Source of the DNA: Phycicoccus flavus
Lineage (GTDB): Bacteria > Actinomycetota > Actinomycetes > Actinomycetales > Dermatophilaceae
NCBI RefSeq assembly: GCF_004025965.2
Contig: NZ_SAYU02000022.1
Coordinates: 1-56,051, forward strand
DNA length: 56,051 nucleotides
Reading direction: 5' to 3'
The position numbers and the translations under genes were made by a program. The notes under the pieces are model-generated. The model did not search any database, was not told the origin of the DNA, and saw only the letters and a program-made list of their open reading frames with translations. Positions 4,969 through 39,826 of this stretch are shown here, one piece after another; positions within the stretch are counted from its first letter, which is position 1, and each line of letters begins with the position of its first letter.

Positions 4969-5859
4969 TCAGGAGGGGTCGATGCGGTGGCCGTAGGCCA
5001 TCTGCTCCAGGCGGGCGATGCGCTCGGCCATCGGCGGGTGGGTGGCCATGAGCCGCGAGACGTCCTGGGCCCGGAACGGGTTGGCGATCATCATGTGGCT
5101 GGCGTTGACGAGCTGCCGCGACGGGGCGAGCGGGGCCCGGGCGGTCCCGGACTCCAGCTTGCGCAGGGCGCTCGCCAGGGCCAGGGGGTCGCCGGTGAGG
5201 CTCGCGCCGTCCTCGTCGGCGTCGTACTCGCGGGTCCGGGAGATCGCCATCTGGACGAACATCGCCGCGATCGGCGCGAGGATGGCCAGGGCCAGGCCGG
5301 CCAGCGGGTTGCCGCCGTCGCGGCGGTCGCCGCCCCCGAAGATCATGCCGAAGGACAGGAACTGACCGATGGTCGAGATGACACCGGCGATGGCCCCGGC
5401 GACGGAGGCGGTGAGGATGTCGCGGTTGTACACGTGCATGAGCTCGTGGCCGAGGACGCCGCGCAGCTCGCGCTCGTCGAGGAGGCCGAGGATGCCCTCG
5501 GTGCAGCAGACGGCGGCGTTCTCCGGGTTCCGGCCGGTCGCGAAGGCGTTGGGGGCCTGGGTCGGCGAGACGAACAGCCGCGGCATCGGCTTGCCGGCGC
5601 GGGTCGAGAGCTCGCGGACGATGCGGTACATCGCGGGGGCCTGGGCCTCGGTGACGGGGTAGGCGTGCATCGCCTTGATGGCGAGCTTGTCGGAGTTCCA
5701 GTAGCCGTAGGCGCTGGTCCCGACCGCGATGAGGGCGAAGAGCAGGATGAAGACGCTGCTGCCGGTCCGCACGGCGATGAAGTAGCCGATGCCGAGGAGG
5801 ATCGCCCACAGCCCGCCGAACAGGGCCGCCGTCTTCAGCCCGTTGAAGTGGTTGTGCAT
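4969..5859 (-). CDS. htpX: membrane zinc metalloprotease HtpX
   Basis: This 296-residue M48-family protease of membrane-protein quality control has two N-terminal membrane segments (about 10-30 and 35-53), the zinc motif HELMH (138-142), two further hydrophobic segments (about 150-170 and 186-205), and the third-ligand glutamate in REYDAD near residue 215. It starts 39 bases after the nuoN2 stop on the same strand and has no clear promoter of its own, so it may be the last gene of the nuo2 transcript. From memory, htpX also sits next to a partial nuo cluster in Streptomyces; I could not verify this here. Confidence 0.93.
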
Positions 5860-5898: not shown

Positions 5899-7353
5899 CT
5901 AGCCGAGCGAGCCGAGCAGCAGGTGCGGCAGCGCGCTCGTCAGGGCGAGCACCGCGGTCCCGAGGACGAGGACGACGGCGGTGGAGCGCGGGCGGGCCGG
6001 CCGTGCGCCGCCCTCGTCCGGGGCGGGCGCCAGCAGCACCGCGAACCACCGCAGGTAGACCGCGAGCCCGACGACGACGGCGAGCACCCCGACGAGCGCC
6101 ACCGGCCAGAGCCCCGCGGCGACGGGCGGCGCCAGCGCGAGCACCTTGACGACGAGCCCGACGACACCCGGCGGCAGCCCGGCGAGGACGAGCAGCGCCA
6201 GGGCGAGCGCGCCGCCGGCCAGCGGGTCGCGGCGCACCAGCCCGCGGTGGTCCTCGAGGCTGCGCGCACCGGTGCGGGCGAGCGCGGCGAAGGCCACGGT
6301 GGTCGCGGTGGCGTAGACGAGGACGTAGGCCGCCGAGGCCCGCAGTCCCTCGGCGGTGGGGGCGGTGAGCGGCACGAGGACCCACCCGGCCTGCGCCACC
6401 GTCGACCAGGCGAGCAGCCGGGCCGGGTCCCGCTGGCGCAGCGCGACGACGGTGCCGAGCCCGAGCGAGGCCAGCGCCGGGGCGGCCAGGACGGCGGTGG
6501 GGGCGAGGCCGCCGATCTGCGCGCCGGCGAGGGCCGAGACCGGCACGAGCAGCGCGGCCGCGGCCGACAGCTTCGAGGCCGCCGCGAGGAAGAGCGCCGT
6601 GCCGAGGTCGGCGTGCGCGTAGGCCTGCGGGGTCCAGGCGTGGAAGGGCACGAGCGAGAGCTTGAACCCCAGCCCGGCGACGAGGACGACGAGCGCGAGG
6701 ACGAGGACCGCGCGCCGCTGCGGGTCGGTCCAGGCCAGACCCGCGGTGTCGGACGCGAACGCGGCGTCGCCGGTCGCCGTGAGCCAGAGGGCCGCCCCGA
6801 GGACGAGCAGCGCGAACGACACGAGCGAGGTGACCAGCAGGCTCAGGGCGGCGTGCGCGGCCGGGCGGGTGCCGCGCAGCGCGACGAGGGCGACGGCGGG
6901 GACCGTGGCGAGCTCCAGCGCCACGAGCCAGCTCCCGAGGTCGCGGGCGGCGGCGACGGCGACGCCGCCGGTGGTCGCCGCGAGCAGCAGCGTCGCCGTG
7001 ACCGCGCCGTCGCGCGGCCGGGGTCGACCGTCGTGCCGGACGGCGAGCGCGGCGGCGGCCGCGAGCAGGACGCCGGTCTGGAGGGCCGAGGTGCGCGGGT
7101 CGGCGGTCCACAGGCAGGCGCCGTCGGGGGCGGGCAGGCACAGCGTCCGCAGTGTCGCGCCGCCGGCCCGCAGGGGCCCGGTGGCGGCCGCGACCGCCCC
7201 GACGACGAGGACGGCCGCCGCCGCGGGCAGCGCCCACCGCCCGCCGCCCCGGCGCGGCAGCAGCGCGTCGCCGAGGAGGACGAGGACGACGCCGACGGCC
7301 GGCGCCAGCGCGGGGGCGAGGACGAGGGGGTCGACGGTGACGAGGGCGCTCAT
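5899..7353 (-). CDS. nuoN: NuoN-like antiporter subunit of the second, partial complex I
   Basis: This 484-residue membrane protein of about 14 hydrophobic segments belongs to the Mrp-antiporter-like family of proton-channel subunits. It keeps the key charged sites: the TM5 glutamate in VALELATVP and the TM7 lysine in FKLSLVPFHAW. It is shorter than and clearly diverged from the NuoN of the complete operon (20856-22427). The ATG overlaps the nuoM2 stop as ATGA. It is the last complex I gene of this set. Confidence 0.9.
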   Translation of the reverse strand: MSALVTVDPLVLAPALAPAVGVVLVLLGDALLPRRGGGRWALPAAAAVLVVGAVAAATGPLRAGGATLRTLCLPAPDGACLWTADPRTSALQTGVLLAAAAALAVRHDGRPRPRDGAVTATLLLAATTGGVAVAAARDLGSWLVALELATVPAVALVALRGTRPAAHAALSLLVTSLVSFALLVLGAALWLTATGDAAFASDTAGLAWTDPQRRAVLVLALVVLVAGLGFKLSLVPFHAWTPQAYAHADLGTALFLAAASKLSAAAALLVPVSALAGAQIGGLAPTAVLAAPALASLGLGTVVALRQRDPARLLAWSTVAQAGWVLVPLTAPTAEGLRASAAYVLVYATATTVAFAALARTGARSLEDHRGLVRRDPLAGGALALALLVLAGLPPGVVGLVVKVLALAPPVAAGLWPVALVGVLAVVVGLAVYLRWFAVLLAPAPDEGGARPARPRSTAVVLVLGTAVLALTSALPHLLLGSLG

Positions 7354-8828
7354 CGGGCCCCGACGATCCGGGCGACGGCGTCGCCGGTGGTCGTGAGGAG
7401 GACCATCGGCGCGACCCCGAGCGCGACGACGGCGACGGCGAGCACCCCGAGGACCCAGCGCTCCGGGCCGGTGGTGTCCGGGGTGCGGGCGGCCTCGGGG
7501 TCCGGGCGGTCCCCGGCCCAGACGATCCCCGCGACGCGCAGGGCGTAGGCCGCGGCGAGGGCGGCCCCGACCGCCGCCAGCACCGCGCAGGTGACGAACA
7601 CGACCCGGGGCCGGTCGCCCGCCGGGACCCAGGCGGCGTAGAGCGCGAGCCACTCGCCCCAGAACCCGGCGAGACCGGGCAGGCCGAGGCTCGCGGCGAG
7701 CCCGAGGAGCAGGAGGAAGCCGAGCCGGGGCGAGGTCTCGCGCAGGGCCGGCCGTCGCACCGCGAGGTCGACCGAGCCCCACCGCTGCTTGAGCCCGCCG
7801 ACAAGGACGAAGAGCAGCGCCGAGACCGCCCCGTGCGCGACGTTGCCGTAGAGCGCGGCCTGCAGCCCGGTCTCGGACCCGGTGGCCAGGGCGAGGACGA
7901 CGAAGCCCATGTGCGCCACCGACGAGTAGGCGACGAGGCGCTTGAGGTCGCGCTCGACGAGGCAGACGAGCCCGCCCCAGAGGATGCCGACCGTGCCGGC
8001 GACGGCGAGCGCCGGCGCGAGGGTGGCGACGCCGTCCGGGGTGACGGACACGGGCAGCCGGACGAGCCCGTAGGTCCCCATCTTCAGCAGCACGGCGGCG
8101 AGGAGCACCGACCCGGCCGTCGGCGCCGTCGTGTGGGCCGGCGGCAGCCAGGTGTGCAGCGGGAACACCGGCACCTTGACGGCCAGGCCGACGACGAGCA
8201 GCAGCGCCACCGCGAAGCCGGCCCCGCCGAGGCCGGACCCCCGGGCCGCGGCGAGCGCGACGAGGTCGGAGGTCCCGGCGCGGGCCACGAGCAGGAGGAT
8301 GCCGACGAGCATCACCGTGGAGCCGACGGCGGTGTAGAGGACGAAGCGCTGCGCGGCCCCGGTGCGGGCCCGCGGGTCGTGCCCGTCGCCGTACCGGGAG
8401 ATGAGCAGCCACATCGGGACGAGGACGACCTCGAAGGCGACGAAGAAGAGGACGGCGTCGCGGGCGGTGAAGGTGGCGAGCGCGCCGGCCTCGACGAGAA
8501 GGAGGCAGCCGAGGAACGTCGCGGGCGAGCCGCCGGCCGGGACCTCGACCCAGGCGTGGCCGGCGACGAGCACCCCGACCGCCGCCGTGAGCAGCACGAG
8601 CGGGACCGAGACGCCGTCGACCCCGAAGGACCAGCGCACCCCGAGCTCGGGCAGCCAGGGCCGGTCGACCGCCGAGTCGGCGACGACGACGGCGACGGCC
8701 AGCACCAGCGTGCCGACGGCCGCGGCGAGCGCGGTCCGGCGGGCCGGGCGGACGTCGAGCCCACGGGCACCGGTGAGCAGCCACAGCCCGGCCGCGGCCG
8801 GCAGCGCGAGCAGCAGGCTCACGACCAT
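7350..8828 (-). CDS. nuoM: NuoM-like antiporter subunit of the partial complex I
   Basis: This 492-residue multi-spanning proton-channel subunit has the conserved glutamate in FFVAFEVVLVPMW and the lysine in LAVKVPVFPLHTWLP, so the proton-translocating residues look intact. The start is the ATG at 8828, which overlaps the nuoL2 end by ten bases; the longer open frame upstream is only an extension inside nuoL2. It is a paralogue of the complete-operon NuoM at 22427-23968. Confidence 0.9.
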   Translation of the reverse strand: MVVSLLLALPAAAGLWLLTGARGLDVRPARRTALAAAVGTLVLAVAVVVADSAVDRPWLPELGVRWSFGVDGVSVPLVLLTAAVGVLVAGHAWVEVPAGGSPATFLGCLLLVEAGALATFTARDAVLFFVAFEVVLVPMWLLISRYGDGHDPRARTGAAQRFVLYTAVGSTVMLVGILLLVARAGTSDLVALAAARGSGLGGAGFAVALLLVVGLAVKVPVFPLHTWLPPAHTTAPTAGSVLLAAVLLKMGTYGLVRLPVSVTPDGVATLAPALAVAGTVGILWGGLVCLVERDLKRLVAYSSVAHMGFVVLALATGSETGLQAALYGNVAHGAVSALLFVLVGGLKQRWGSVDLAVRRPALRETSPRLGFLLLLGLAASLGLPGLAGFWGEWLALYAAWVPAGDRPRVVFVTCAVLAAVGAALAAAYALRVAGIVWAGDRPDPEAARTPDTTGPERWVLGVLAVAVVALGVAPMVLLTTTGDAVARIVGAR

Positions 8829-10699
8829 GCGAGCACCCCCGCGAGGCCGAGCAGAACGACGGCGGCGAGAACGAGGCCGACGCCGGCGCTCGGCCGCTCG
8901 CCCCGGTGCAGGCGGTCGCCGGCCCACCCGGCGGCGCGGGTGCCGACGGCGGCGGCTCGCACGTAGCCGTCGACGACCTCGGTGTCGACGAAGGCGACGA
9001 CCCGGGCCAGCCGCAGCACCGGCCGGGCGACGAGCCGCCGGTAGAGCAGGTCGGCCCCGAGGCCGCGGTCGGCGGCCGGGGTGAGGCGGCGGGCCAGGAC
9101 CTCGGCGGGGTCGCGGTCCAGCCCGCCGCGCAGGGCGACGGCCACGCCGACGCCGATGACGAGGACCGACAGCAGCACCCAGAGCGGCGACATGGGCTCG
9201 ACGGTGAAGGCGCCGGTGAGGACGACGAGCCCACCGAGGACGGTGAGCCCGGCGAGGGTCCACAGGACGGCCCGGACGGCGGCGGTGACGCCGGCCGCCG
9301 ACGGCGCCCGGCGGACGTGCGCGGTGAGGACGAGGTAGCCGCGGACGCTGTAGGCGGCGGTGACCGCCGAGGTGACGACGAGCGCGACGAGGACGAGCAC
9401 CCCCGGCCCGTCGGAGCCCACCGCCCCGTCCCAGGAGACCGCGAGGACGTTCTCCTTGGACAGCCCGCCGACGACGACGAGCGGCACCCCGGCGAGGGAG
9501 AGGAAGCCGACGAGGAAGGCGCTGCGCAGCACCGGGGCCGCCCCCGCGCTGCCGCGCAGGGCGGTGGCCGCGGTGTCACCCGCGGCCAGGGCGGCCCAGC
9601 CGATGGCGAGGAAGAGCAGTGACTTGAAGAGCGCGTGCGCGAACAGGTGCAGCAGGCCGGCGTCCGGCCCGGCCTCGGGTGGGGCGGCGGCGACCGCGGA
9701 GAGCACGACGGCGACCTGGCTCACCGTCGACCAGGCGAGCATCCGCTTGAGGTCGCTCTGGGCGAACGCGAGCAGCGCGGCGAACAGCATCGTCACCGAC
9801 ACCGCGACGCCGAGCACCCAGCGCGCCGTCGGGCTGTCGGCCAGGGCCGGGTAGAGCGAGCCGAGGACGACGGTGCCGGCGGCGACCATCGTCGCGGCGT
9901 GGATGAGCGCGCTGGCGGGCGTCGGGCCCTCCATGGCGTCGGCGAGCCAGTCCTGGAACGGCACCTGGGCGGACTTGCCGAGCACGCCGACGACGAGCAG
10001 GACGAGCAGCACGGCGCGCAGCCGGCCGTCCGGGGCGGAGCAGGCGGCGAAGGCCTCGCTCGGGTAGAGGCCCTGCCCGAGCGCGGCGTCGATGCAGTCG
10101 GTGGGCTGCACCCAGGCCGAGACGACGTCCGGGATCGAGGTGCTCGTCGCCCCCGCGGCGAGACCGACGAACGCGAGGACGACCCCGACGTCGGCGACCC
10201 GGGTGACGAGGAAGGCCTTGAGGGCGGCGCGGCGGGCGAACGGCCGCCGCGACCAGTGCCCGACGAGGAGGTAGGAGCACCAGCCCATGACCTCCCACCC
10301 GACGAGGGTGAGCACGAGGTCGGCGGAGAGGACGACGAGGAGCATCGCGGCGGTGAACAGGGACACGGTGGCCGCGAACTGCCCGTAGCGGTCGTCGGTC
10401 GCCAGGTACCACGTCGAGTACACCTGGACGGCGAGCGCGACGAGGACGACGACGGTGGCCAGGGCCGCCCGGGTGGGGTCCAGGACGAGGTCCAGCGGGA
10501 CGGCGAGGGCCCCGGCCCGGAGCCCCGGGCCCTCGGTGAGGGTGCTGCCGTCGGCCTCGGCCCAGCCGACGACCGCGACGAGCAGCGTGAACCCGCCGGG
10601 CGCGACGGCGGCGAACCGCGCGACCCGGTCGTCGGCGCGCACGGCCAGGCCGACGAGAGCCGCGAGTGCCGGCACGCCGACGAGCACCCAGGGGGTCAC
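8819..10699 (-). CDS. nuoL: NuoL-like antiporter subunit of the partial complex I
   Basis: This is a 626-residue distal proton-pumping subunit. It has the TM5 glutamate in VGWEVMGWCSYLL, the TM7 lysine in GKSAQVPFQDWL and the motif ALIHAATMV shared with the other NuoL, followed by the long C-terminal helix region. The GTG start overlaps the nuoK2 stop as GTGA. The presence of L, M and N with intact charged residues means the set can build a complete membrane arm. Confidence 0.92.
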   Translation of the reverse strand: MTPWVLVGVPALAALVGLAVRADDRVARFAAVAPGGFTLLVAVVGWAEADGSTLTEGPGLRAGALAVPLDLVLDPTRAALATVVVLVALAVQVYSTWYLATDDRYGQFAATVSLFTAAMLLVVLSADLVLTLVGWEVMGWCSYLLVGHWSRRPFARRAALKAFLVTRVADVGVVLAFVGLAAGATSTSIPDVVSAWVQPTDCIDAALGQGLYPSEAFAACSAPDGRLRAVLLVLLVVGVLGKSAQVPFQDWLADAMEGPTPASALIHAATMVAAGTVVLGSLYPALADSPTARWVLGVAVSVTMLFAALLAFAQSDLKRMLAWSTVSQVAVVLSAVAAAPPEAGPDAGLLHLFAHALFKSLLFLAIGWAALAAGDTAATALRGSAGAAPVLRSAFLVGFLSLAGVPLVVVGGLSKENVLAVSWDGAVGSDGPGVLVLVALVVTSAVTAAYSVRGYLVLTAHVRRAPSAAGVTAAVRAVLWTLAGLTVLGGLVVLTGAFTVEPMSPLWVLLSVLVIGVGVAVALRGGLDRDPAEVLARRLTPAADRGLGADLLYRRLVARPVLRLARVVAFVDTEVVDGYVRAAAVGTRAAGWAGDRLHRGERPSAGVGLVLAAVVLLGLAGVLAWS

Positions 10700-11010
10700 G
10701 CGCCCGGCTCCGCGTCGCTGCGGGCGTCGAGGTCGATGCTCCCCCGCTGCCGGAAGACCGCGAGGACCACCGCGAGCGCGACGACGACCTCGGCCGCGGC
10801 GATGGTGACGACGAAGAGCGGCAGGACGCTGCCGGCCGCCCAGCGGTCCGCACCGGCGGCCTGGGTGGCCACGAGGAGGACGAGCGCCCCGGAGAGGACG
10901 AGCTCGACCCCGACGAGGACGAGGACGGCGTTGCGGCGCCCGGCGATGCCGGTGACGCCGAGACCGACGAGCAGCGACGCCAGGAGCACCGGGCCGAGGG
11001 TGTGGATCAC
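10696..11010 (-). CDS. nuoK: NuoK-like subunit of the partial complex I
   Basis: This small membrane subunit of 104 residues has three hydrophobic segments and carries the two buried glutamates of the family, in VGVELVLSGA and AAAEVVVALA. These belong to the E-channel linking the quinone site to the antiporter subunits. Its start overlaps the nuoJ2 end by four bases. Confidence 0.9.
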   Translation of the reverse strand: MIHTLGPVLLASLLVGLGVTGIAGRRNAVLVLVGVELVLSGALVLLVATQAAGADRWAAGSVLPLFVVTIAAAEVVVALAVVLAVFRQRGSIDLDARSDAEPGA

Positions 11011-11534
11011 GACGCCCCCCTCCGCCGGGAAGGGGCGCCGGCGTCCGGGCGGCGGGCGACCGCCAGTGCCCCGACGAGGGCGGCGAGCAGCAGGAGCGAG
11101 AGCAGCTCGAAGGGCCAGACCCAGGTGCCGAACAGCTGCCCGGCGACCTGCTGGGAGCCGACGTCGGCGCGCTGCACGGTGCCGTCGGCCAGCGGCACGA
11201 GGACGGTGGCGAGCAGCCCGGCGCTCGCCAGGCCGAGCAGCCCGGAGCCGAGGCGTCGCCAGGGGCCGACGGTGTGCGCGAGGTCGGGTCCGACCGGGGC
11301 CCGGGTGAGCATGAGCGCGAAGAGGACGAGGACGACGACGGCGCCGACGTAGACGAGGACGAGCACGAGCGCGACGAGCTCGGCCCCGAGGACGAGCAGC
11401 GCGCCGGCCACCCCGAGCAGGGCGACGACGAGCCAGAGCGCGGCGTGGACGACGTGGCGCGTGGTCACGGCGAGGAGACCGCCGACCACCGCGAGCACGC
11501 CGCTCGCCGCGAAGGCGGTGTCGAGCGCGGTCAC
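11007..11534 (-). CDS. nuoJ: NuoJ-like subunit of the partial complex I
   Basis: This 175-residue membrane subunit has five hydrophobic segments. The recognisable segment [18 protein letters not shown] corresponds to the TM3 pi-bulge helix of NuoJ. The GTG start at 11534 overlaps the nuoI2 stop (GTGA); the longer frame upstream lies inside nuoI2. It lacks the roughly 80-residue polar C-terminal tail present on the other NuoJ in this window. Confidence 0.88.
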
Positions 11535-12166
11535 GTCGGGTCCTCCCGCACGACCTTCGGACGGACGGTGCGGGGCGGACGGGCCGCCGCCGCGCCCCCG
11601 GGCGCCCGCGGGGTGCGCGCCGGCCGGTTCGCGGCGGCGACCTCGGCCGGCTCGGCGGCCTTGTCGTCGAGGGCGGGCGGCGGCGGCACGGTGGCCATCC
11701 ACTCCCCCAGGCGCTCCTTCTCGTGCAGCAGGTCGCGGATGTCGGTCTCGGCGTACTCGAACTGCGGGCTCCAGAACAGCGCGTCGAAGGGGCAGACCTC
11801 GATGCAGATGCCGCAGTACATGCACAGGGAGAAGTCGATGGCGAAGCGGTCCAGGACGTTGCGCTGCCGCTCGCGGCCGCCGGGCGTGGGGGCCGGGACG
11901 GTCTCCTTGTGCGAGTCGATGTGGATGCACCAGTCCGGGCACTCGCGGGCGCAGAGCATGCACGAGGTGCAGTTCTCCTCCAGCAGCGCGATGACGCCGC
12001 GGCTGCGCGGCGGGAGGCTCGGCGCGACGTCCGGGTACTCCGCGGTGTGCGCCGGCCGCATGGCGGTGCGGGCCGTCGTGGCCAAGCCCTTGAGGACGCC
12101 GGGCAGCCCGCCCGAGCCGCGGGTGTCCTTCGGCTGCTCGTGGCGGCCGCGGTGCTTCTCGCTCAC
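11531..12166 (-). CDS. nuoI: NuoI-like 2x[4Fe-4S] ferredoxin subunit of the partial complex I
   Basis: This 211-residue electron-carrying subunit has two CxxCxxCxxxC clusters: Cys66, 69, 72, 76 and Cys115, 118, 121, 125. In a complex without NuoE, F and G, this subunit would be the natural entry point for electrons from a soluble ferredoxin. The C-terminal 40 residues are rich in alanine, proline and arginine and differ from the other NuoI. The GTG start at 12166 overlaps the nuoH2 stop. Confidence 0.92.
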
Positions 12167-13119
12167 CAGCCCAGCACCACCCCGGTGCCGGTGAGCACGA
12201 GCTGCGCCAGCGCCAGCGGCACGAGCCACAGCCAGGCCAGGCGCTGCAGCTGGTCCTCGCGCAGCCGCGGCCACGCCACCCGCACCCAGACGACGACGAG
12301 CGCGACGGCGAGCCCCTTGAGCAGCGTCCACAGCCAGCCGAGCGCGTCCGGGACGGGGCCGTGCCAGCCGCCGAGCCACAGCACCGCGAAGAGGAGGGAG
12401 ACGACGACGATGCCGGCGTACTCGGCGAGGAGGAAGAAGGCGAAGCGCAGGCCGGTGTACTCGGTCCAGGCGCCCATGACGAGCTCGGCGTCGGCCACCG
12501 GCATGTCGAAGGGCGGGCGCTGCAGCTCCGCGGCGCCGGCGACGAGGAAGACGACCGCCCCCGGCAGCTGCCAGAGCAGCCACCACGGGCTCCAGGCGTC
12601 CGCGAGCGCGACGAGCGAGAGCGAGCCGCCGGCCAGGGCGACCGACGCGACGGCGAGGACGAGCGGCAGCTCGTAGGAGACGAGCTGGGCGGCGGCCCGC
12701 AGCCCGCCGATGAGGGAGTACTTGTTCGCGCTGGACCAGCCGGCCATGAGGGTGCCGAGCGCGCCGACCGACGTCGCGGCGAGGACGAGGAGCACCGAGC
12801 CCGGCACGTCCACCGCGGCGAGGCCCGGGTGGACCGGGACGAGGGCGAGCGCCAGCAGGTAGGGCACGAGGGCGACCGCGGGGGCCAGCCGGAAGACCCA
12901 GCGGTCGGCGGCGGCCGGGGTCACGTCCTCCTTCTGGAGGAACTTCACGCCGTCGGCGACGAGCTGGGCCCAGCCGTGGAAGCCGCCGGCGTACATCGGG
13001 CCCAGGCGGCCCTGCATGTGGGCCATGACCTTGTGCTCGGCCTGGCCGACGAGCAGCGGCAGGACGAGGAAGGCGGCGAGGGCGGCGACCGCGCGCAGGG
13101 CGGCCTCGAGCAGCGTCAC
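12163..13119 (-). CDS. nuoH: NuoH-like quinone-site membrane subunit of the partial complex I
   Basis: This membrane subunit anchors the peripheral arm and lines the quinone channel. It has about eight hydrophobic segments, the loop motif [17 protein letters not shown] and the signature [17 protein letters not shown] with [16 protein letters not shown]. The GTG at 13119 (318 residues) is preferred because it overlaps the nuoC2 stop as GTGA, like the junctions around it; a GTG at 13131 would add four residues. In the complete operon nuoD, E, F and G separate nuoC and nuoH; here nuoC2 abuts nuoH2 directly. Confidence 0.9.
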
Positions 13120-13637
13120 CGCGGACCCCACTCCGGCGGCGGGACGCCGGGTGCCTGGACGCGGCGGCGGCTCGGCGAGCGGGAGGACTCGTGGCCCTCC
13201 CCCGGCTCCTTGCCGCCCGGCCAGGGCCGGCTCGCGCGGGCGGCGAGCTGGAAGGACTTGCGCAGCGGCGTCCCCTCGAAGCCGTCGGGCAGCAGGAGCG
13301 GGCGCAGGCCGAGGCCGGTGCCGTCGTCGAAGCCCTCGACGTCGATGCCGAACATCTCGTGGGTCTCGCGCTCGTGCCAGGCGGCGCCGGGGAAGACGCC
13401 GGTGACGGACGGGAGGGCCTCACCGTCGGCGAGGCGGGTCGTGAGGAGGAGGCCGCGCAGCGCACCGGGCGACCGGACGTCGTAGAGGTGGCAGACGACG
13501 TCGTAACCGGGGGCGGCCTCGTCGTAGGTGCGGTCGACGGCGCTCAGCCAGTCGAGGAAGGCGAAGCCCTCGTCACGGGCCGCGGCGACGGCCCCGCGCC
13601 ACGCCGCGCGCTCCACCGTCCTCGCCTCGTCGACCAC
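13116..13637 (-). CDS. nuoC: NuoC-like subunit of the partial complex I
   Basis: This 173-residue 30-kDa-type subunit is recognised by [18 protein letters not shown] (residues 81-98) and [12 protein letters not shown]. The last 40 or so residues are a polar tail with no similarity to NuoD, so this is not a NuoCD fusion. The start codon GTG at 13637 lies seven bases after a TAGAGT box, so this gene probably opens its own transcript for C2-H2-I2-J2-K2-L2-M2-N2. NuoC normally docks on NuoD, which is missing from this locus. Confidence 0.88.
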
Positions 13638-13644
13638 GCCCGGC

Positions 13645-13650
13645 ACTCTA
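13645..13650 (-). promoter_or_regulatory. -10 box of the nuoC2-N2 transcript (leaderless geometry)
   Basis: On the minus strand this reads TAGAGT, then GCCGGGC (seven bases), then the nuoC2 GTG. It means the lower half of the nuo2 set has its own promoter and does not rely on the nuoA2 transcript, which would have to cross arr. Confidence 0.5.
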
Positions 13651-13672
13651 GCGAGCCCCCGCGCCCCCACTT

Positions 13673-13717
13673 TCTCGCCTGATCCCGCGACCCTCGGGTT
13701 CGCCCACCCTCCGTTCC
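13673..13717 (+). repeat. left direct repeat flanking arr
   Basis: This 45-bp block matches 14337-14381 at 39 of 45 positions with no gaps and in the same orientation. It lies just upstream of the nuoC2 promoter. The pair brackets the arr gene, and the right copy touches the yrdB-like stop codon. Confidence 0.7.
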
Positions 13718-13730
13718 CCGGCGAACCCGA
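13694..13730. repeat. 11-bp inverted repeat between nuoC2 and arr
   Basis: TCGGGTTCGCC (13694-13704) and GGCGAACCCGA (13720-13730) are perfect inverted repeats 15 bases apart in the divergent gap. They could be an operator for either gene or a hairpin. They overlap the left direct repeat. Confidence 0.45.
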
Positions 13731-13795
13731 AGCTTCCGGCGCGCAGGTCCTCCCCCTGACGCCCGGAGGACGGCCCGTCCAGCGCGAGCGGGCGC

Positions 13796-13801
13796 TAGGG
13801 T
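13796..13801 (+). promoter_or_regulatory. -10 box of arr
   Basis: TAGGGT would start a leader of about 40 bases containing a GAGGAG ribosome site at 13835-13840, seven bases before the arr GTG. No -35 is evident. Confidence 0.4.
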
Positions 13802-13847
13802 CTGGCCCGACAGCAGCAGCAGCCCCGACCGTCCGAGGAGCCCCGCC

Positions 13848-14309
13848 GTGCAGGAGCCCTCGAGCGACCACCCGCGCGTCACCTACGACTCCTGCGACGG
13901 GATCGGCGGCCCCTTCTACCACGGGACGGCAGCGCTCCTGGAGCCCGGAGCCGAGCTGGTCCCCGGGCACCGGTCGAACGTCGAGACGACCCGGGTGATG
14001 AACCACGTCTACTTCACCTCGCTCGTCGCGACGGCCGCGTGGGGCGCCCAGCTGGCCGCCGCGCTGCGCGGCCGCGAGGACCGGGGCCACGTCTACGTCG
14101 TCGAGCCGACGGGCCCCTTCGAGGACGACCCCAACGTCACGGACAAGCGCTTCCCCGGCAACCCCACGCGCTCCTTCCGGGCCCGCACCCCGCTGCGGGT
14201 GGTCTCCGAGCTGCGCGACTGGGAGGCGCACTCCCCCGAGGCGCTCGCGACGATGCTCGACAGCCTGTCCCGGCTGCGGGAGCAGGGGCTCGCCGTCATC
14301 GAGGACTAG
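13848..14309 (+). CDS. arr: rifampin ADP-ribosyltransferase (Arr)
   Basis: This 153-residue enzyme transfers ADP-ribose from NAD+ to the C23 hydroxyl of rifamycins and inactivates them. Family landmarks are FYHGT with His25, the NHVYFTS region with Tyr55, and VEPTGPFEDDPN (85-96) with its conserved acidic residues, followed by DKRFPGNPTRS and LRVVSELRDWE. The length is close to that of the mycobacterial Arr. It lies on the plus strand inside an otherwise minus-strand nuo2 set, convergent with the yrdB-like gene and divergent from nuoC2, and is bracketed by 45-bp direct repeats. It is probably an acquired resistance gene, though its base composition is like that of its neighbours. Confidence 0.93.
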   Translation: MQEPSSDHPRVTYDSCDGIGGPFYHGTAALLEPGAELVPGHRSNVETTRVMNHVYFTSLVATAAWGAQLAAALRGREDRGHVYVVEPTGPFEDDPNVTDKRFPGNPTRSFRARTPLRVVSELRDWEAHSPEALATMLDSLSRLREQGLAVIED

Positions 14310-14336
14310 GCGCGTCCCCGGGCCGCGGCCCCAGAC

Positions 14337-14381
14337 TCTCGCCCGATCCCGGAACCGTCGGGTCCGCCCACCCTCCGTGCC
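14337..14381 (+). repeat. right direct repeat flanking arr
   Basis: This is the second copy of the 45-bp block at 13673-13717 (39/45 identical). It ends on the base before the yrdB-like stop codon (14382), so the duplicated stretch reads as the 3' flank of that gene. Confidence 0.7.
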
Positions 14382-14795
14382 TCAGTCCTGCGGAGTCGGG
14401 TCCACCGGCCGGTGCAGGACGGACTGAGCCGCGACGACGACGACGCCGAGCAGCCCGACGACCCAGGCCCACGCGGCGTGACCGCTGACGGCGAGGCTGG
14501 CCGCCACGGCGACGACGAGCACGGCGGCCACCGCCGAGCGCGGGCCGGCCGCGAGCCGCCGCGCGCCCTTCGGCGCCATGAACCTCCCCCACAGGAGCAG
14601 GACGAGCCCGACGGCGACCGCTCCGGCGACCCAGCCGGCGACGCCCCCGCCGACGAGGTCGTGGACGACGACCCCCACCCCGCCGAAGAGGGCGAGCTCG
14701 GTGACGAAGGCGGCGACCGCCAGCAGCAGGAGCGCGGGCGTCGAGATGGCCGCGGCGTCGTGGGCGGGGCCGCGCGGCGGTCCGTCGGCGCTCAC
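14382..14795 (-). CDS. YrdB/DUF2568-like small membrane protein
   Basis: This 137-residue protein has about four hydrophobic segments and the family-like stretch [14 protein letters not shown]. That motif and the size match the YrdB (DUF2568) family, whose function is not known. The GTG start at 14795 overlaps the nuoB2 stop as GTGA, so it is cotranscribed with nuoA2 and nuoB2. It sits where nuoC2 and nuoD2 would be expected next. It is not a complex I subunit as far as I can tell. Confidence 0.65.
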
Positions 14796-15373
14796 GGCCG
14801 GGCGACCAGCCCGCGGGTGACGTCGGCGGCGGTGGCCGCCCGGTGCCCGGCGAAGCGCCCGGCCCGGCGGGCGGCGATGGCGGGACCGCTCAGCCGCTCG
14901 TCGGCGATCTTCTCCTGCAGCCGGATGATGCCCTGGAGCAGCGCCTCGGGCCGCGGCGGGCAGCCGGGCACGTAGACGTCGACGGGGACGATCTGGTCGA
15001 CGCCCTTGGTCACCGAGTAGCTGTCCCAGTAGGGCCCGCCGCTGTTGGAGCAGGCCCCGAAGGAGATGACGTACTTCGGCTCGGGCATCTGGTCGTAGAG
15101 GCGCCGGATGGCCGGCGCCATCTTGTCGGTCACCGTGCCGGACACGACCATGAGGTCGGCCTGGCGCGGCCCGGGCGCGAACGGGATGACCCCGAGGCGG
15201 ATGAAGTCGTGCCGGCCCATCGACGTCGCGATGAACTCGATGGCGCAGCACGCGAGCCCGAAGTTGAAGACCCACAGCGAGTAGCGCCGCCCCCAGTTCA
15301 GCACCACGCGCACCGGCTTGGGAGCGTACCGGGAGACCGGGCCGACCTTCGGCGTGGGCAGGTCGACGCTCAC
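14792..15373 (-). CDS. nuoB: NuoB-like N2-cluster subunit of the partial complex I
   Basis: This 193-residue subunit holds the terminal [4Fe-4S] cluster N2 that reduces quinone. The tandem cysteines Cys42-Cys43 in FGLACCAIE, Cys108 in [10 protein letters not shown] and Cys138 in VPGCPPRPE are all present. The C-terminal 30 or so residues (rich in alanine and arginine) differ from the other NuoB. The GTG start overlaps the nuoA2 stop. NuoB packs against NuoD in known complexes, so its retention without nuoD is notable. Confidence 0.92.
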
Positions 15374-15735
15374 GGCAGGTCCCAGCGCAGGAGGCCGCGG
15401 CGGGCGGCGTGGACCAGGCCGAGGAGGACGACCCCGACGAAGACGAGCACCTCGACGAGCGAGGCCACCCCGAGGTCGGCGTCGCGCAGGACCAGCGCCC
15501 ACGGGAAGAGGTAGACGGCGTCGACGGCGAAGACGACGTAGAGGAAGGCGAAGGAGAGGTAGCGCACCTGCGACTGGGCCCAGCCGGCGCCCACGGGGTC
15601 CACCCCCGACTCGTACGTCGTGCGCCCGGCCGGCGTCGCGGCCCGGGGCGCGACGAGCCGGCGCGCGAGCATCGCCGCCGTCACGAGCAGCACGCCCGCG
15701 AGGACGACGGCCGCGACCGCGAGGTAGCCCTCCAC
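15370..15735 (-). CDS. nuoA: NuoA-like subunit of the partial complex I
   Basis: This 121-residue membrane subunit has three hydrophobic segments and the family motif YESGVDPVG (the ECG loop of NuoA reads ESG here), then [24 protein letters not shown]. The cysteine of the canonical YECG loop is replaced by serine. The GTG start at 15735 is set by a TAGGGT box seven bases upstream. It is the first gene of the nuoA2-nuoB2-yrdB-like transcript and is divergent from korA. Confidence 0.9.
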
Positions 15736-15742
15736 GGCGCCC

Positions 15743-15748
15743 ACCCTA
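15743..15748 (-). promoter_or_regulatory. -10 box of nuoA2 (leaderless geometry)
   Basis: On the minus strand this reads TAGGGT, then seven bases (GGGCGCC), then the nuoA2 GTG. It shares a 150-bp divergent region with the korA promoter. No Rex-like operator is visible in this region. Confidence 0.5.
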
Positions 15749-15813
15749 GCGAGCGGGCTTCGACGTCCGTGCCGCAGCGCGGGACGCGGGTGAGCCGGCC
15801 CGCGGCCCGGACG

Positions 15814-15819
15814 TAGCAT
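15814..15819 (+). promoter_or_regulatory. -10 box of korA
   Basis: TAGCAT lies about 66 bases upstream of the korA GTG. The predicted start (about 15826) coincides with the first base of a hairpin (15827-15854), so the transcript would begin with that stem. Confidence 0.45.
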
Positions 15820-15826
15820 GGAAGGC

Positions 15827-15854
15827 GGTGCGCCTGCCCCGCGGGGAGGGCACC
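15827..15854 (+). other. 5'-terminal hairpin in the korA leader
   Basis: GGTGC (15827-15831) pairs with GCACC (15850-15854), and inside lies the self-complementary CCCCGCGGGG. A stem at the very 5' end of the mRNA could protect it from decay or affect translation. Its role is inferred only from position. Confidence 0.4.
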
Positions 15855-15885
15855 GACCCACGACTTCCAAGCTCCCAGGACCACC

Positions 15886-17751
15886 GTGACCAGCAAGACC
15901 GCCCAGACCCTCGACCGCGTCGTCATCCGGTTCGCCGGTGACTCCGGGGACGGCATGCAGCTGACGGGCGACCGCTTCACCTCCGAGACCGCGGCGGTCG
16001 GCAACGACCTGTCGACGCTGCCGAACTTCCCGGCCGAGATCCGCGCCCCCCAGGGCACGCTGCCCGGCGTCTCGAGCTTCCAGCTGCACTTCGCCGACCA
16101 CGACGTCCTCACCCCCGGCGACGCCCCCGACGTCCTCGTCGCGATGAACCCGGCGGCGCTCAAGGCCAACCTCGGCGACCTGCCCCGCGGCGCCGTGCTC
16201 ATCGTCGACACCGACGAGTTCACCAAGCGCAACCTCGCGAAGGTCGGCTACGCCGCGAGCCCGCTGGACGACGGCAGCCTCGACTCCTGGCACCTGCACC
16301 CGGTGGCGCTCACCTCGATCACCGTCGAGGCGCTCGCGGAGTACGGCGGGCTGTCGCGCAAGGAGAAGGAGCGGGCGAAGAACATGTTCGCCCTCGGCCT
16401 GCTCTCCTGGATGTACACCCGCCCCACCGACGGCACGAAGAGCTTCCTCACGAAGAAGTTCGGCGCCAACCCCGAGCTCCTCGCCGCCAACCTCACCGCC
16501 CTCGAGGCCGGCTGGAGCTACGGCGAGACCACCGAGGACTTCGCCTCGACCTACGTCGTCGGGCCCGCCCCGATGCCGCCGGGCACCTACCGCAACGTCA
16601 CCGGCAACACCGCGCTCGCCCTCGGGCTCGTCGCCGCCGCGCACCGCGCCGGGCGGCCGCTGGTCCTCGGCTCCTACCCGATCACGCCCGCCTCCGACAT
16701 CCTCCACGCGCTCTCCGGCATGAAGCGGCACGGCGTCACCACCGTGCAGGCCGAGGACGAGATCGCCGGGGTCGGGATCGCCCTCGGGGCGTCCTACGGC
16801 GGCGCGGTCGGCGTCACGACCACCTCGGGGCCGGGCATCGCGCTGAAGTCGGAGACCATCGGCCTGGCCGTCTCCCTCGAGCTGCCGCTCGTCGTCGTCG
16901 ACATCCAGCGCGGCGGACCCTCCACCGGGCTGCCGACCAAGACCGAGCAGGCCGACCTGCTCCAGGTGATGTTCGGCCGCAACGGCGAGTCGCCCGTCCC
17001 CGTCGTCGCCGCACAGACCCCGGCCGACTGCTTCGCCGCCGCCCTCGACGCCGTGCGGATGGCGACGACGTACCGCACGCCGGTCGTCCTGCTGTCCGAC
17101 GGCTACCTCGCCAACGGCTCCGAGCCGTGGTCGGTCCCGGACGTCGCCGACCTGCCGGCGCTCGACGTCGGTCTCGCCACCGAGCCCAACGCCACCGACG
17201 ACGCCGGCGAGCCGGTCTTCCGCCCCTACCTGCGCGACCCCGAGACCCTGGCCCGGCCGTGGGCGGTCCCCGGCACGCCCGGCCTGGAGCACCGGATCGG
17301 CGGCATCGAGAAGGCCGACGTCACCGGCGACATCAGCTACGACCCGGACAACCACGACCGCATGGTCCGGCTGCGGCAGGCCAAGGTCGACGGCATCACC
17401 GTCCCCGACCTCGAGGTCGACGACCCCACCGGCGACGCCCGGGTCCTCGTCCTCGGCTGGGGCTCGACCTACGGGCCGGTCGCCGCGGCCACCCGCACCG
17501 TCCGCAACGCCGGGAGCGCCATCGCCCGCGCGCACCTGCGTCACCTCAACCCCTTCCCGGGCAACCTCGGCGACGTGCTGCGCCGCTACGACCGCGTCGT
17601 CGTCCCCGAGATGAACACCGGACAGCTCGCGCTCCTCCTGCGCGCCAAGTACCTCGTCGACGTCCGCTCCCACACCTCCGTGCGCGGCCTGCCGTTCACG
17701 ACGGTCGAGCTCGCCGACGTCCTCTCCACGACCCTCGAGGAGATCCGATGA
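15886..17751 (+). CDS. korA: 2-oxoacid:ferredoxin oxidoreductase, fused gamma-alpha subunit
   Basis: With KorB this oxidises a 2-oxoacid (probably 2-oxoglutarate) to its acyl-CoA and reduces ferredoxin. The 621-residue chain opens with the gamma domain (RFAGDSGDGMQLTGDRF, from about residue 15, through about 190), then the alpha domain with NTALALGLVAAAHRAG, GSYPITPASDIL, QAEDEIAG and TTSGPGIALKSE, as in actinobacterial KorA. The GTG start is preceded by a weak AGGA. The stop overlaps the korB ATG. It lies divergently from the partial complex I set, which supports a shared role in ferredoxin-linked electron transfer. Substrate preference cannot be read from sequence alone. Confidence 0.9.
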   Translation: MTSKTAQTLDRVVIRFAGDSGDGMQLTGDRFTSETAAVGNDLSTLPNFPAEIRAPQGTLPGVSSFQLHFADHDVLTPGDAPDVLVAMNPAALKANLGDLPRGAVLIVDTDEFTKRNLAKVGYAASPLDDGSLDSWHLHPVALTSITVEALAEYGGLSRKEKERAKNMFALGLLSWMYTRPTDGTKSFLTKKFGANPELLAANLTALEAGWSYGETTEDFASTYVVGPAPMPPGTYRNVTGNTALALGLVAAAHRAGRPLVLGSYPITPASDILHALSGMKRHGVTTVQAEDEIAGVGIALGASYGGAVGVTTTSGPGIALKSETIGLAVSLELPLVVVDIQRGGPSTGLPTKTEQADLLQVMFGRNGESPVPVVAAQTPADCFAAALDAVRMATTYRTPVVLLSDGYLANGSEPWSVPDVADLPALDVGLATEPNATDDAGEPVFRPYLRDPETLARPWAVPGTPGLEHRIGGIEKADVTGDISYDPDNHDRMVRLRQAKVDGITVPDLEVDDPTGDARVLVLGWGSTYGPVAAATRTVRNAGSAIARAHLRHLNPFPGNLGDVLRRYDRVVVPEMNTGQLALLLRAKYLVDVRSHTSVRGLPFTTVELADVLSTTLEEIR

Positions 17752-18836
17752 CCACCGTCGACCTCGGCCTGCCCACGACCGGCCTCCAGCACGTCCCCCA
17801 CCTGCCGGACGACGCGCCCGCGCAGACAAAGCGCGACTTCACCTCCGACCAGGAGGTGCGCTGGTGCCCCGGCTGCGGCGACTACGTCATCCTCGCCGCC
17901 GTCCAGTCCTTCCTGCCCTCGCTCGGGCTGCGCCGGGAGAACATCGTCTTCGTCTCCGGCATCGGCTGCTCCTCGCGCTTCCCGTACTACCTCGACACCT
18001 ACGGGATGCACTCCATCCACGGACGGGCGCCCGCCATCGCCACCGGCCTCGCGACCTCCCGGCCCGACCTGTCGGTGTGGGTCGTCACCGGGGACGGCGA
18101 CGCGCTGTCCATCGGCGGCAACCACCTCGTCCACGCGCTGCGCCGCAACGTCAACATGACGATCCTGCTGTTCAACAACCAGATCTACGGACTCACCAAG
18201 GGCCAGTACTCCCCCACCTCGCGGCCGGGCACGGTGACGAAGTCGAGCCCGCTGGGGTCGGTCGACGCCCCGTTCAACCCCGCCTCGCTGGCCCTCGGGG
18301 CCGAGGCGACGTTCGTCGCGCGGGCCATGGAGTCCGACCGCGCCGAGCTCACCACCGTGCTCAAGGCCGCCGCCCAGCACCGCGGCACGGCACTGGTCGA
18401 GATCTACCAGAACTGCCCGATCTTCAACGACGGCGCGTTCGAGGTGCTCAAGGACCGCACCCAGCAGGCGGCCCGCATCGTCCGGCTGCGCTCCGGGGAG
18501 CCCGTCACGGTCGGGCCCGAGGACGACCGCCGCGTGCTCGTCCGGGTCGCGGGCGGTGCCTCGGAGTTCGTCCCGGAGGCCGAGGTCGGCGCGCGCGAGG
18601 TCGTCGTCCACGACGCCGCCGCCGACGACCCGTCCGGGGCCTTCGCCCTGTCGCGGCTGGACTCCCCGGAGATGACGCACGTGCCGATGGGGATCTTCCG
18701 GCAGGTCTCGCGGCCGACGTACGACGACCTCGTCCGGGCCCAGGTCGACGCCGCGGTCGAGACCGCGGGCGGGCCCGCCACGGACGACGACCTCGCCGCG
18801 CTCCTGCGAGGACGCGACACCTGGACCGTGGGGTGA
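17748..18836 (+). CDS. korB: 2-oxoacid:ferredoxin oxidoreductase, beta subunit
   Basis: This 362-residue TPP and [4Fe-4S] subunit contains WCPGCGD (Cys40, Cys43), GIGCSS (Cys74) and a fourth cysteine in QNCPIFND. The TPP/Mg site is GDGDAL (115-120) with NNQIYGLTKGQ (143-153). The ATG overlaps the korA stop by four bases and the gene's stop overlaps the next start as GTGA. No separate ferredoxin gene is present in the window, so the electron carrier is encoded elsewhere. Confidence 0.92.
   Translation: MTTVDLGLPTTGLQHVPHLPDDAPAQTKRDFTSDQEVRWCPGCGDYVILAAVQSFLPSLGLRRENIVFVSGIGCSSRFPYYLDTYGMHSIHGRAPAIATGLATSRPDLSVWVVTGDGDALSIGGNHLVHALRRNVNMTILLFNNQIYGLTKGQYSPTSRPGTVTKSSPLGSVDAPFNPASLALGAEATFVARAMESDRAELTTVLKAAAQHRGTALVEIYQNCPIFNDGAFEVLKDRTQQAARIVRLRSGEPVTVGPEDDRRVLVRVAGGASEFVPEAEVGAREVVVHDAAADDPSGAFALSRLDSPEMTHVPMGIFRQVSRPTYDDLVRAQVDAAVETAGGPATDDDLAALLRGRDTWTVG

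Positions 18837-34162: not shown

Positions 34163-34163
<1 letters not shown>
32772..34163 (-). CDS. nuoE: NADH-quinone oxidoreductase subunit E with long linker and C-terminal sunset-like domain
   Basis: Residues 1 to about 235 are a normal [2Fe-2S] thioredoxin-like NuoE with ligands Cys106, Cys111, Cys147 and Cys151. The chain then runs on to 463 residues, about twice the usual length. Residues from about 240 to 405 are rich in Glu, Lys, Ala and Asp and look disordered. Residues 410-449 contain GNADSMLFHTPQSPWYGRT and AEVWFRDAEAARAAGF, which I recognise as the small actinobacterial domain often called the sunset domain; its role is unknown. The reading frame is uninterrupted and flows into nuoF with an ATGA overlap, so this is not a frameshift artefact. 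Confidence 0.93.
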
Positions 34164-35565
<1,402 letters not shown>

Positions 35566-37655: not shown

Positions 37656-38369
37656 CTAACCCTCGACGGTGCCTCCGCCCGGCCGGCGCGCCCGGTGCAG
37701 CGCGACGATCCCGCCGGAGAGGTTGCGCCACTGCACCCCGGTCCAGCCGGCGTCGGCGACCTGCTCGGCGAGCCCCCGCTGGTCCGGCCAGGCCCGGATC
37801 GACTCCGCGAGGTAGACGTAGGAGTCGGGGTTGCTGCTGACCCGCCGGGCGACCCGCGGCAGCGAGCCCATGAGGTAGCGGGAGTACACGGTGCGCAGCG
37901 GGGCGAGGGTCGGGCTGCTGAACTCGCAGACGACGAGGCGTCCGCCGGGCCGGGTGACCCGGAGGAACTCCCGCAGCGCGGCGGCGGGGTCGGCGACGTT
38001 GCGCAGCCCGAAGGACATCGTCACGACGTCGAAGGAGCCGTCGGCGAAGGGCAGGCGCATCGCGTCGGCGGCGGTGAACCCGAGGTCGGTGCGCCGGCGC
38101 CGGCCCTCGCGCAGCATCCCGAGGCTGAAGTCGGCCGGGACGACGTCGACGCCGGAGTCCGCGAAGGGCTCGCTGCTCGTGCCCGTTCCGGCGGCGATGT
38201 CGAGGACCCGCTCGCCGGGCTCGGCGGCGCAGGCGGCGAGGACGGCCCGCCGCCACAGCCGGTCCTGGCCGAGGGAGAGCACGTCGTTGGTCACGTCGTA
38301 GCGGCGCGCGACGTCGTCGAACATCGCGGCGACGTCGCGGGGGTCCTTCTCGAGGGAGGCGCGGGACAT
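37656..38369 (-). CDS. menG: demethylmenaquinone methyltransferase
   Basis: This 237-residue SAM-dependent methyltransferase makes menaquinone from demethylmenaquinone, the last ring step. It has [20 protein letters not shown] near the N terminus, the SAM motif [12 protein letters not shown], and the UbiE/MenG signatures [18 protein letters not shown] and [14 protein letters not shown]. The ATG is six bases after a GAGGAT box, suggesting a leaderless mRNA. It is divergent from menF over 59 bases and lies upstream of the nuo operon on the same strand. Confidence 0.93.
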
Positions 38370-38375
38370 GCCGCC

Positions 38376-38381
38376 ATCCTC
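38376..38381 (-). promoter_or_regulatory. candidate -10 box of menG (leaderless geometry)
   Basis: On the minus strand this reads GAGGAT, followed by six bases (GGCGGC) and the ATG. It shares the 59-bp gap with the menF promoter. Confidence 0.35.
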
Positions 38382-38413
38382 GCACCGCTGCCGGGGAGCC
38401 CGCCGGTGCGCCG

Positions 38414-38419
38414 TATCGT
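38414..38419 (+). promoter_or_regulatory. -10 box of menF
   Basis: TATCGT lies nine bases before the menF ATG, so the transcript would be leaderless or nearly so. Confidence 0.45.
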
Positions 38420-38428
38420 GGGGTCCCG

Positions 38429-39739: not shown

Positions 39740-39752
39740 CCTCGTTGCTTCT

Positions 39753-39808
39753 TCCCGAACGTGTGTGAACACGCCGGGGATCCCCGGCGTGTTCACACAC
39801 GTTCGGGA
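39753..39808. terminator. 56-bp perfect palindrome between convergent menF and menJ
   Basis: The 28 bases 39753-39780 are the exact reverse complement of 39781-39808, with no spacer. Centre GGGGATCCCC; outer ends TCCCGAACG and CGTTCGGGA. RNA from either strand would fold into a very long hairpin. It sits 14 bases after menF and 19 before the end of the opposite gene, so a bidirectional terminator is the simplest reading. Confidence 0.75.
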
Positions 39809-39826
39809 GAGGTGGGGGGGTCGGGG

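Follow-up and report, generated by a model that had tools for sequence, protein, structure and literature searches.

Complex I is usually regarded as a single, inseparable redox-driven pump, and a set of its genes from which nuoD is missing raises the question of how the encoded enzyme is completed. Such a set, called nuo2 here, lies on a 56,051-nucleotide stretch of the Phycicoccus flavus genome (contig NZ_SAYU02000022.1, hereafter the window), together with a second nuo operon, nuo1, that does contain nuoD. We find that nuo2 is probably the larger part of a split complex I of eleven subunits, devoid of an NADH module of its own, the NuoD of which (NuoD2) is encoded elsewhere in the genome, beside a midA gene. 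The evidence comes from sequence comparison: the genes themselves, a second nuoD, the co-occurrence of the two loci, and a match between their products at the level of single residues.

The nuo2 locus and a second nuoD gene

Ten nuo2 genes were recognised on the minus strand between positions 5899 and ~15732, in the order N2, M2, L2, K2, J2, I2, H2, C2, B2, A2 (Table 1), and every one of them is an open frame. The cluster ligands are intact, namely the four N2 cysteines of NuoB2 (CC..C..C) and both 4Fe-4S motifs of NuoI2. The charged residues of L2, M2 and N2 (Glu of transmembrane helix TM5, Lys/His of TM7/TM8, Lys/Glu of TM12), whose roles are presumed here, align with those of nuo1, and the same is true of H2 and K2. 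Pfam, tblastn and the nuo1 alignment thus confirm the ten-gene set with intact ligands and charged residues that had been described from the window alone (the original prediction), and the position of korAB on the opposite strand, ~150 bases away from nuoA2, is confirmed as well. No match to NuoD, E, F or G was obtained in the frames of the nuo2 locus that were tested (no search for another NuoEFG was made in the rest of the genome), which supports the notion of a NuoEFG-less complex I set beside a 2-oxoacid:ferredoxin oxidoreductase. The sole NuoD of the window is that of nuo1 (~20.9-37.4 kb), in which NuoG, F and D were named and A-C and H-N were found by tblastn; NCBIfam gave no match for the one candidate frame for its NuoE.

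A search of the genome to which the window belongs (G000; 153 contigs, 98% complete) with PF00346 retrieved two genes for NuoD, that of the window (NuoD1) and one at G000:C122:6788-7966 (NuoD2). The nuoD2 gene is full length and open (392 residues from its presumed start), and begins five bases past the end of a Methyltransf_28 gene (PF02636, MidA/NDUFAF7 family), in a region containing folate genes and ftsH. Its product is 41% identical to NuoD1, 81-95% identical to the NuoD2 of 16 of 28 relatives, and 57% identical to that of one more. The original prediction had held that the complex has no NuoD of its own, and had named a dedicated nuoD2 elsewhere as the finding that would speak against it. 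Contig C122 carries such a gene, and it tracks nuo2 as described below; at the scale of the genome, the claim fails.

Among 29 genomes (P. flavus and its relatives), nuoH2 (at least 71% identity) was present in 17 and nuoD2 (at least 81%) also in 17. The sole mismatches were G002, with nuoH2 alone in an assembly of 710 contigs that is 93% complete, and G019, where nuoD2 coexists with a gutted nuoH2. One further relative, G012, has the 57% NuoD2 and lacks nuoH2. Over 148 genomes of the class, and among the matches listed, where weak fragments may be missed, at least 41 had nuoH2 (one as fragments), at least 67 had nuoD2, and 39 had both. The two that showed nuoH2 without nuoD2 are 72% and 80% complete.

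Of 20 stretches from other classes of the phylum, 19 encoded NuoD2 inside a cluster resembling nuo2, at most 130 bases from H2 in 18 of them and adjoining C2 and B2 in one. All eleven nuo2 genes were detected in 15 of the 20, and MidA followed nuoN2 on the same strand in four. The four most divergent rows of this sample may correspond to the main complex I of those genomes rather than to a second one. In a tree from which eight same-genus rows had been dropped (as they were from the NuoD2 segment comparison below), all NuoD2 rows were separate from NuoD1. Since nuoD2 sits within the nuo2-like cluster in other classes, the ancestral form would be one cluster with D in place, and we infer that nuoD2 and midA moved away later, in the class of P. 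flavus.

Table 1. Position of the nuo2 genes and of their neighbours in the window.
Gene	Position	Strand	Match and remarks
nuoN2	5899..7353	-	PF00361; start approximate
nuoM2	7350..8828	-	PF00361; start approximate
nuoL2	8819..10699	-	PF00361 and PF00662
nuoK2	10696..11010	-	PF00420
nuoJ2	11007..11513	-	PF00499; start approximate
nuoI2	11531..12166	-	Fer4 families, two 4Fe-4S motifs; TIGR01971 under its cut-off
nuoH2	12163..13131	-	PF00146
nuoC2	13116..13670	-	PF00329; start approximate
nuoB2	14792..15367	-	PF01058; N2 ligands intact, Thr at the NuoB1 Arg site
nuoA2	15370..15732	-	PF00507; start approximate
arr-like gene (rifampin ADP-ribosyltransferase family), between nuoC2 and nuoB2	13848..14309	+	PF12120; outside the complex
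DUF2568 orf, after nuoB2	14382..14741	-	PF10823; start approximate
htpX-like M48 peptidase, downstream of nuoN2	4969..5859	-	PF01435
korA, 2-oxoacid:ferredoxin oxidoreductase alpha, divergent from nuo2	15886..17751	+	POR_N, POR
korB	17757..18836	+	TPP_enzyme_C; NCBIfam PorB_KorB 250.6 bits, cut-off 261.9
nuoD1 of nuo1, for comparison	34163..35404	-	HRGxE position is Thr; quinone Tyr present

Residues beside cluster N2 pair NuoD2 with NuoB2

In the excerpts of the literature that are drawn on here and below, Arg85 of NDUFS2, which lies in an HRGxE motif beside cluster N2, is dimethylated by NDUFAF7, and in Thermus the NuoB arginine R83 occupies the same space while NuoD has a Thr (PMC3829151, PMC8042128). 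At the position of NDUFS2 R85, we read Arg in 98 of 98 NuoD2 and Thr in 6 of 6 NuoD1 (11 of 11 in a larger set of 66 NuoD rows, each of at least 300 residues). The neighbouring NuoB site, which we take to be that of Thermus R83 by counting along the sequence, shows the reverse: Thr in 57 of 57 NuoB2, and Arg in 20 of 20 NuoB1. Three of 23 NuoB2 rows from the reduced sets described below were gapped or incomplete at the two adjacent cysteines in one alignment; the CC pair was visible in all three on a second view, and these were counted as alignment faults.

This swap bears on the proposal, made in the original prediction, that nuo2 borrows the NuoD1 of the complete operon. The presence of both operons in one window, with a nuo2 locus that lacks nuoD, speaks for borrowing. 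A NuoB2-NuoD1 pair would however have Thr at both N2-side positions, unlike every pair type read, each of which has one Arg, so that this pairing is unlikely; moreover, a second nuoD exists and tracks nuo2. Borrowing is therefore rejected, its probability being very small.

The MidA gene follows the same partition. Of 29 genomes that carry nuoD2, 24 gave a match, against 0 of 14 that lack it, using the P. flavus protein as query at an E value of 0.001, a search in which diverged copies may be missed, and it lay inside the fetched stretch in 28 of 33 nuoD2 stretches. Three genomes that are 97-99% complete (G142, G153 and G163) have a nuoD2 with the Arg and no MidA detected by this search, which counts against a strict link. 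As in the NDUFAF7/NDUFS2 R85 pair (PMC3829151, PMC8042128), a protein with a Methyltransf_28 domain is thus encoded beside a NuoD that bears the target arginine in its HRGxE motif. The difference is that MidA, a predicted methyltransferase, is here genetically tied to one of two NuoD copies, and from its distribution it appears to serve that copy only.

Observations that weigh against the split complex

Several observations weigh against a split, KorAB-fed and quinone-reducing complex, and they are gathered in this section. To begin with, nuoD2 and nuo2 are on different contigs in P. flavus; where they share a contig (G006, G009, G083), ~104-225 kb separate them. The nuo2 cluster is itself interrupted by two genes that were missing from the original description, the arr-like gene and the DUF2568 orf. 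Fifteen relatives have stretches spanning the nuoC2-nuoB2 junction, and no arr-like gene was seen there in any of them (the stretches of two further relatives end at contig ends), and DUF2568 also follows nuoB2 in five genus members (G003, G005, G009, G010, G011). The distance from nuoA2B2 to nuoC2 reaches 14-17 kb in seven genus members (G001, G003, G004, G005, G008, G009, G010), and the two are close together in G006, G007 and G011. Based on the opposite-strand arr-like gene and on this gap, a single transcript throughout nuo2 is unlikely, and because of the other DNA found there in these seven members, the junction looks like an insertion hot spot.

The inserted genes, and the loss of parts of nuo2 in relatives such as G019, could also be taken to mean that the locus is a decaying, functionless copy in this genome. 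Against this, all its genes are open with their residues intact, and NuoH2, NuoD2 and NuoB2 are 87-95% identical inside the genus, which makes decay a highly improbable explanation.

A further point is the link to KorAB. In its favour, the kor genes are divergent beside nuoA2B2 in 16 of 23 full-set stretches, some of which are cut short. They also lie beside nuoB2 in 12 of 20 reduced stretches, at most 2.4 kb away, and in all three of G042, G086 and G096, the last of which has nuoA2 and was labelled neither full nor reduced. On the other hand, a kor gene was found near nuo2 in none of the 20 stretches from other classes. At the genome level, KorA is present in 25 of 29 genomes with nuoD2 (two of them as fragments) and absent from four, and 8 of the 14 genomes that lack nuoD2 have it too. 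KorAB as an obligate partner was thus not upheld (Fisher p 0.055, kinship not corrected for): the link is frequent, not obligatory. Of the comparison of loci that had been proposed from the window, the kor linkage stood as a frequent but not universal feature, and the absence of nuoD did not, since the gene is not lacking but split off in this class. The kor-nuo2-htpX neighbourhood that the original prediction placed in Streptomyces is supported by a genome of 9.7 Mb (L138) and, in part, by the excerpts of PMC13118837, which mention nuoA-C and korA/korB, and of PMC3765725, which mention nuo2. In that 9.7 Mb genome (G083), nuoA2 and korA are separated by two sensor histidine kinases (L138:11987-14908), which suggests regulation of the divergent nuo2/kor pair. 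In G010 (L021/L029, L415), nuoD2 and korA are each in two pieces, through frameshifts or assembly errors.

Finally, the quinone site of NuoD2 is altered. Offsets were checked against R85: the tyrosine is at R85 +23, the same spacing as R121-Y144 (PMC8042128). Where mammals have this tyrosine as Y108 (Yarrowia as Y144, Thermus as Y87), a Trp stands in 78 of 78 NuoD2 of the class, and the reduction of quinone may differ accordingly. Trp is also found in 16 of 20 NuoD2 from other classes, and Tyr is kept in four of the most divergent rows of these and in all NuoD1 read. A Leu column of the NuoD2 alignment corresponds to position 102, and is distinct from position 108. As complete nuo2 sets carry the Trp too, it is not a sign of decay; it weakens the case for canonical quinone chemistry, not that for homology.

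One can then imagine nuo2 as an ion pump driven by ferredoxin, in which the Trp-bearing pocket of NuoD2 serves a terminal acceptor other than a respiratory quinone. The Trp itself fits this idea, and so does the behaviour of the reduced relatives described next, which keep the N2 side and have lost segments presumed to be quinone-facing. Nevertheless, 97 of 98 NuoD2 retain the quinone histidine (H59), and the full sets of the class show a conserved segment around Glu160, with the Glu itself in 50 of 50. We regard a non-quinone acceptor as unlikely, yet as the most serious of the alternatives.

Reduced sets without the membrane arm

Among the matches listed, 28 of the 67 class genomes with nuoD2 have at most fragments of nuoH2. 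NuoI2 was nevertheless found in 28 of 29 nuoD2 genomes tested, 28 of which are without a full nuoH2, and in none of the 14 tested that lack nuoD2. The reduced loci consist of korAB divergent from nuoB2-C2-I2, without A, H and J-N, and with htpX next in several of them. In a sample of 22 named genomes, tested from 80 named loci, NuoI2 was present in 21, and NuoD2 and NuoI2 occurred without NuoH2 in three, Motilibacter deserti (probably the same genome as G105), Streptosporangium violaceochromogenes and Microbispora sp. H11081, draft assemblies being able to hide genes.

By parsimony, the membrane arm would have been lost at least three times, three changes being the minimum on the tree; they are read as losses because the outgroups have the arm. 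The large reduced clade (25 rows, including G012, of the same family as P. flavus) has long branches, and false grouping or gene transfer is possible there. In G019, which looks like a recent loss of the arm, B2, C2, I2, htpX and nuoD2 are present, and J-N were not found there. Its nuoH2 (L129:8900-9300) has lost long internal pieces and retains one open frame of ~125 residues, either a short membrane anchor or plain decay.

To see what is conserved, we compared 25 reduced rows (G019 and G043 left out) with eight of the 20 rows from other classes. The overall agreement with the consensus of the full sets was alike, 0.59 and 0.58 respectively. The NuoD2 segment around Asp/Glu160 (ELGAITPIF), picked as one of the most relaxed of all, agreed at 0.17 in reduced rows versus 0.82 in other-class rows. 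In the unpicked NuoB2 and NuoI2 tables, some first and last entries of which are gap effects, the values were 0.15-0.28 versus 0.64-0.90 for NuoB2 28-36 and 46-72, and 0.05-0.25 versus 0.53-0.65 for the N-terminal helix region of NuoI2 (19-54). The reduced rows kept HRGAEKLFE, LANRHDWLS, the N2 cysteines and the 4Fe-4S motifs. The segments lost from NuoB2, NuoD2 and NuoI2 are those that we take, from complex I structures, to face the quinone, NuoH or the membrane. The contrast between kept and lost segments suggests that selection in reduced sets acts on electron transfer as far as N2, and not on the quinone/pump interface.

In seven of the eight reduced stretches without kor, nuoN1 is 1-7 kb upstream of nuoB2, which would suit a NuoB2-C2-D2-I2 core that serves as an alternative electron-input module and docks on the nuo1 membrane arm, here and in the reduced genomes. 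The window has a full nuo2 membrane arm, and the reduced forms are without the NuoI2 helix and the NuoB2 and NuoD2 segments presumed to face NuoH or the quinone; docking is accordingly improbable. A shared new gene of the reduced loci was also considered as acceptor, and rejected: in the few korA-nuoB2 or midA-nuoD2 gaps that were inspected, the contents differ by genome (a beta-helix protein, an ABC-2 transporter, a P450, sensor kinases), with no common candidate.

Coming back to the split complex, its functional unit may be the NuoB2-C2-D2-I2 core, matured by MidA and mostly associated with KorAB, the arm being optional; without the arm, it would be a soluble or peripheral, non-pumping, KorAB-fed and quinone-free enzyme, a complex I Q-module that has become independent. 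We put this forward tentatively, at somewhat less than an even chance.

Two observations on related membrane genes were made in passing. Extra Proton_antipo_M genes lie near nuoD2 at L126:4872-9230 (G055) and L134:11152-12222 (G049), although G055 has a full nuo2 elsewhere. P. flavus has a third, distant NuoH-like gene (G000:C46:39952-40719, 29% identity), possibly part of a hydrogenase-4-like membrane complex.

Proposed mechanism

In the full form, NuoA2-D2 and NuoH2-N2 would assemble as one complex, and MidA would methylate the NuoD2 arginine near N2 during assembly. The KorAB of the window has the expected domains, a POR gamma/alpha fusion and a TPP-binding beta subunit, and its 2-oxoglutarate specificity is presumed from the name given by homology. 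It would turn a 2-oxoacid, mostly 2-oxoglutarate, into acyl-CoA and CO2, releasing low-potential electrons. These would travel by ferredoxin or by direct contact with KorAB, enter at NuoI2, and run through N6a and N6b to N2 in NuoB2. The acceptor at the NuoD2/NuoB2/NuoH2 pocket would most likely be menaquinone, or a related acceptor in the modified site. Genes of menaquinone type flank nuo1 (37656-41062 and 19837-~20900 of the window): UbiE/MenG-like, chorismate-binding enzyme, FAD/geranylgeranyl reductase-like and polyprenyl synthase genes. The membrane arm would pump protons; in the reduced form, the electron wire would be the same and the pump absent. Feeding of nuo2 by KorAB is plausible, and the whole route from KorAB through NuoI2 to menaquinone stays conjectural, given that kor is not always adjacent and that Trp replaces the quinone Tyr.

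Relation to known systems

A Streptomyces nuo2 with a separate nuoD2 and without the N-module (the NADH-input genes) has been published (PMC3765725, PMC8388888), so that the finding in the window is of a known kind, and it is the comparison across genomes that adds a new variant. Both systems have nuoA2, B2 and H2-N2, no N-module genes, and nuoD2 elsewhere. In Streptomyces the set is contiguous, and data suggest one operon (PMC3765725); here, two genes lie inside the cluster. The excerpts of the Streptomyces accounts leave nuoC2 unlisted and are silent on korAB, MidA and the residue changes. In a 2026 paper (PMC13118837), nuoA-C and korA/korB are mentioned in the vicinity of a Streptomyces regulator, and a census from 2025 covers incomplete sets of complex I genes, the nuo2 set not being named in the excerpt (PMC12361115). 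Searches of an open-access library, supplements not covered, found no earlier account of the link to MidA, of the Arg/Thr swap, of the Trp or of the B2-C2-D2-I2 core.

Other complexes resemble nuo2 in part. The complex I of a strict anaerobe also has no NADH module, with ferredoxin or a 2-oxoacid oxidoreductase as the proposed electron source and menaquinone as output; that host differs by its anaerobic life, and the excerpt says nothing of subunits divided between loci. Complex I of Campylobacter likewise has no NADH input, with flavodoxin as donor, unlike what is proposed for nuo2 (as cited in PMC3765725, PMC11238625), and Campylobacter has a 2-oxoglutarate:acceptor oxidoreductase as well (PMC4257069). 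The mycobacterial KorAB belongs, like that of P. flavus, to an aerobic actinobacterium, and the accessible part of its study did not identify the physiological acceptor (PMC2773412); korAB in the window differs by being divergent from nuoA2B2.

Implications

The nuo2 complex is a candidate acceptor for actinobacterial KorAB. Across genomes, an eleven-gene cluster, a split set and a redox core alone, often beside 2-oxoacid:ferredoxin oxidoreductase genes, form a natural series, and the reduced genomes provide natural material on what the Q-module does without the pump. Finally, two NuoD copies in one cell, with MidA tied to one of them, offer an internal control for the role of the arginine near N2.

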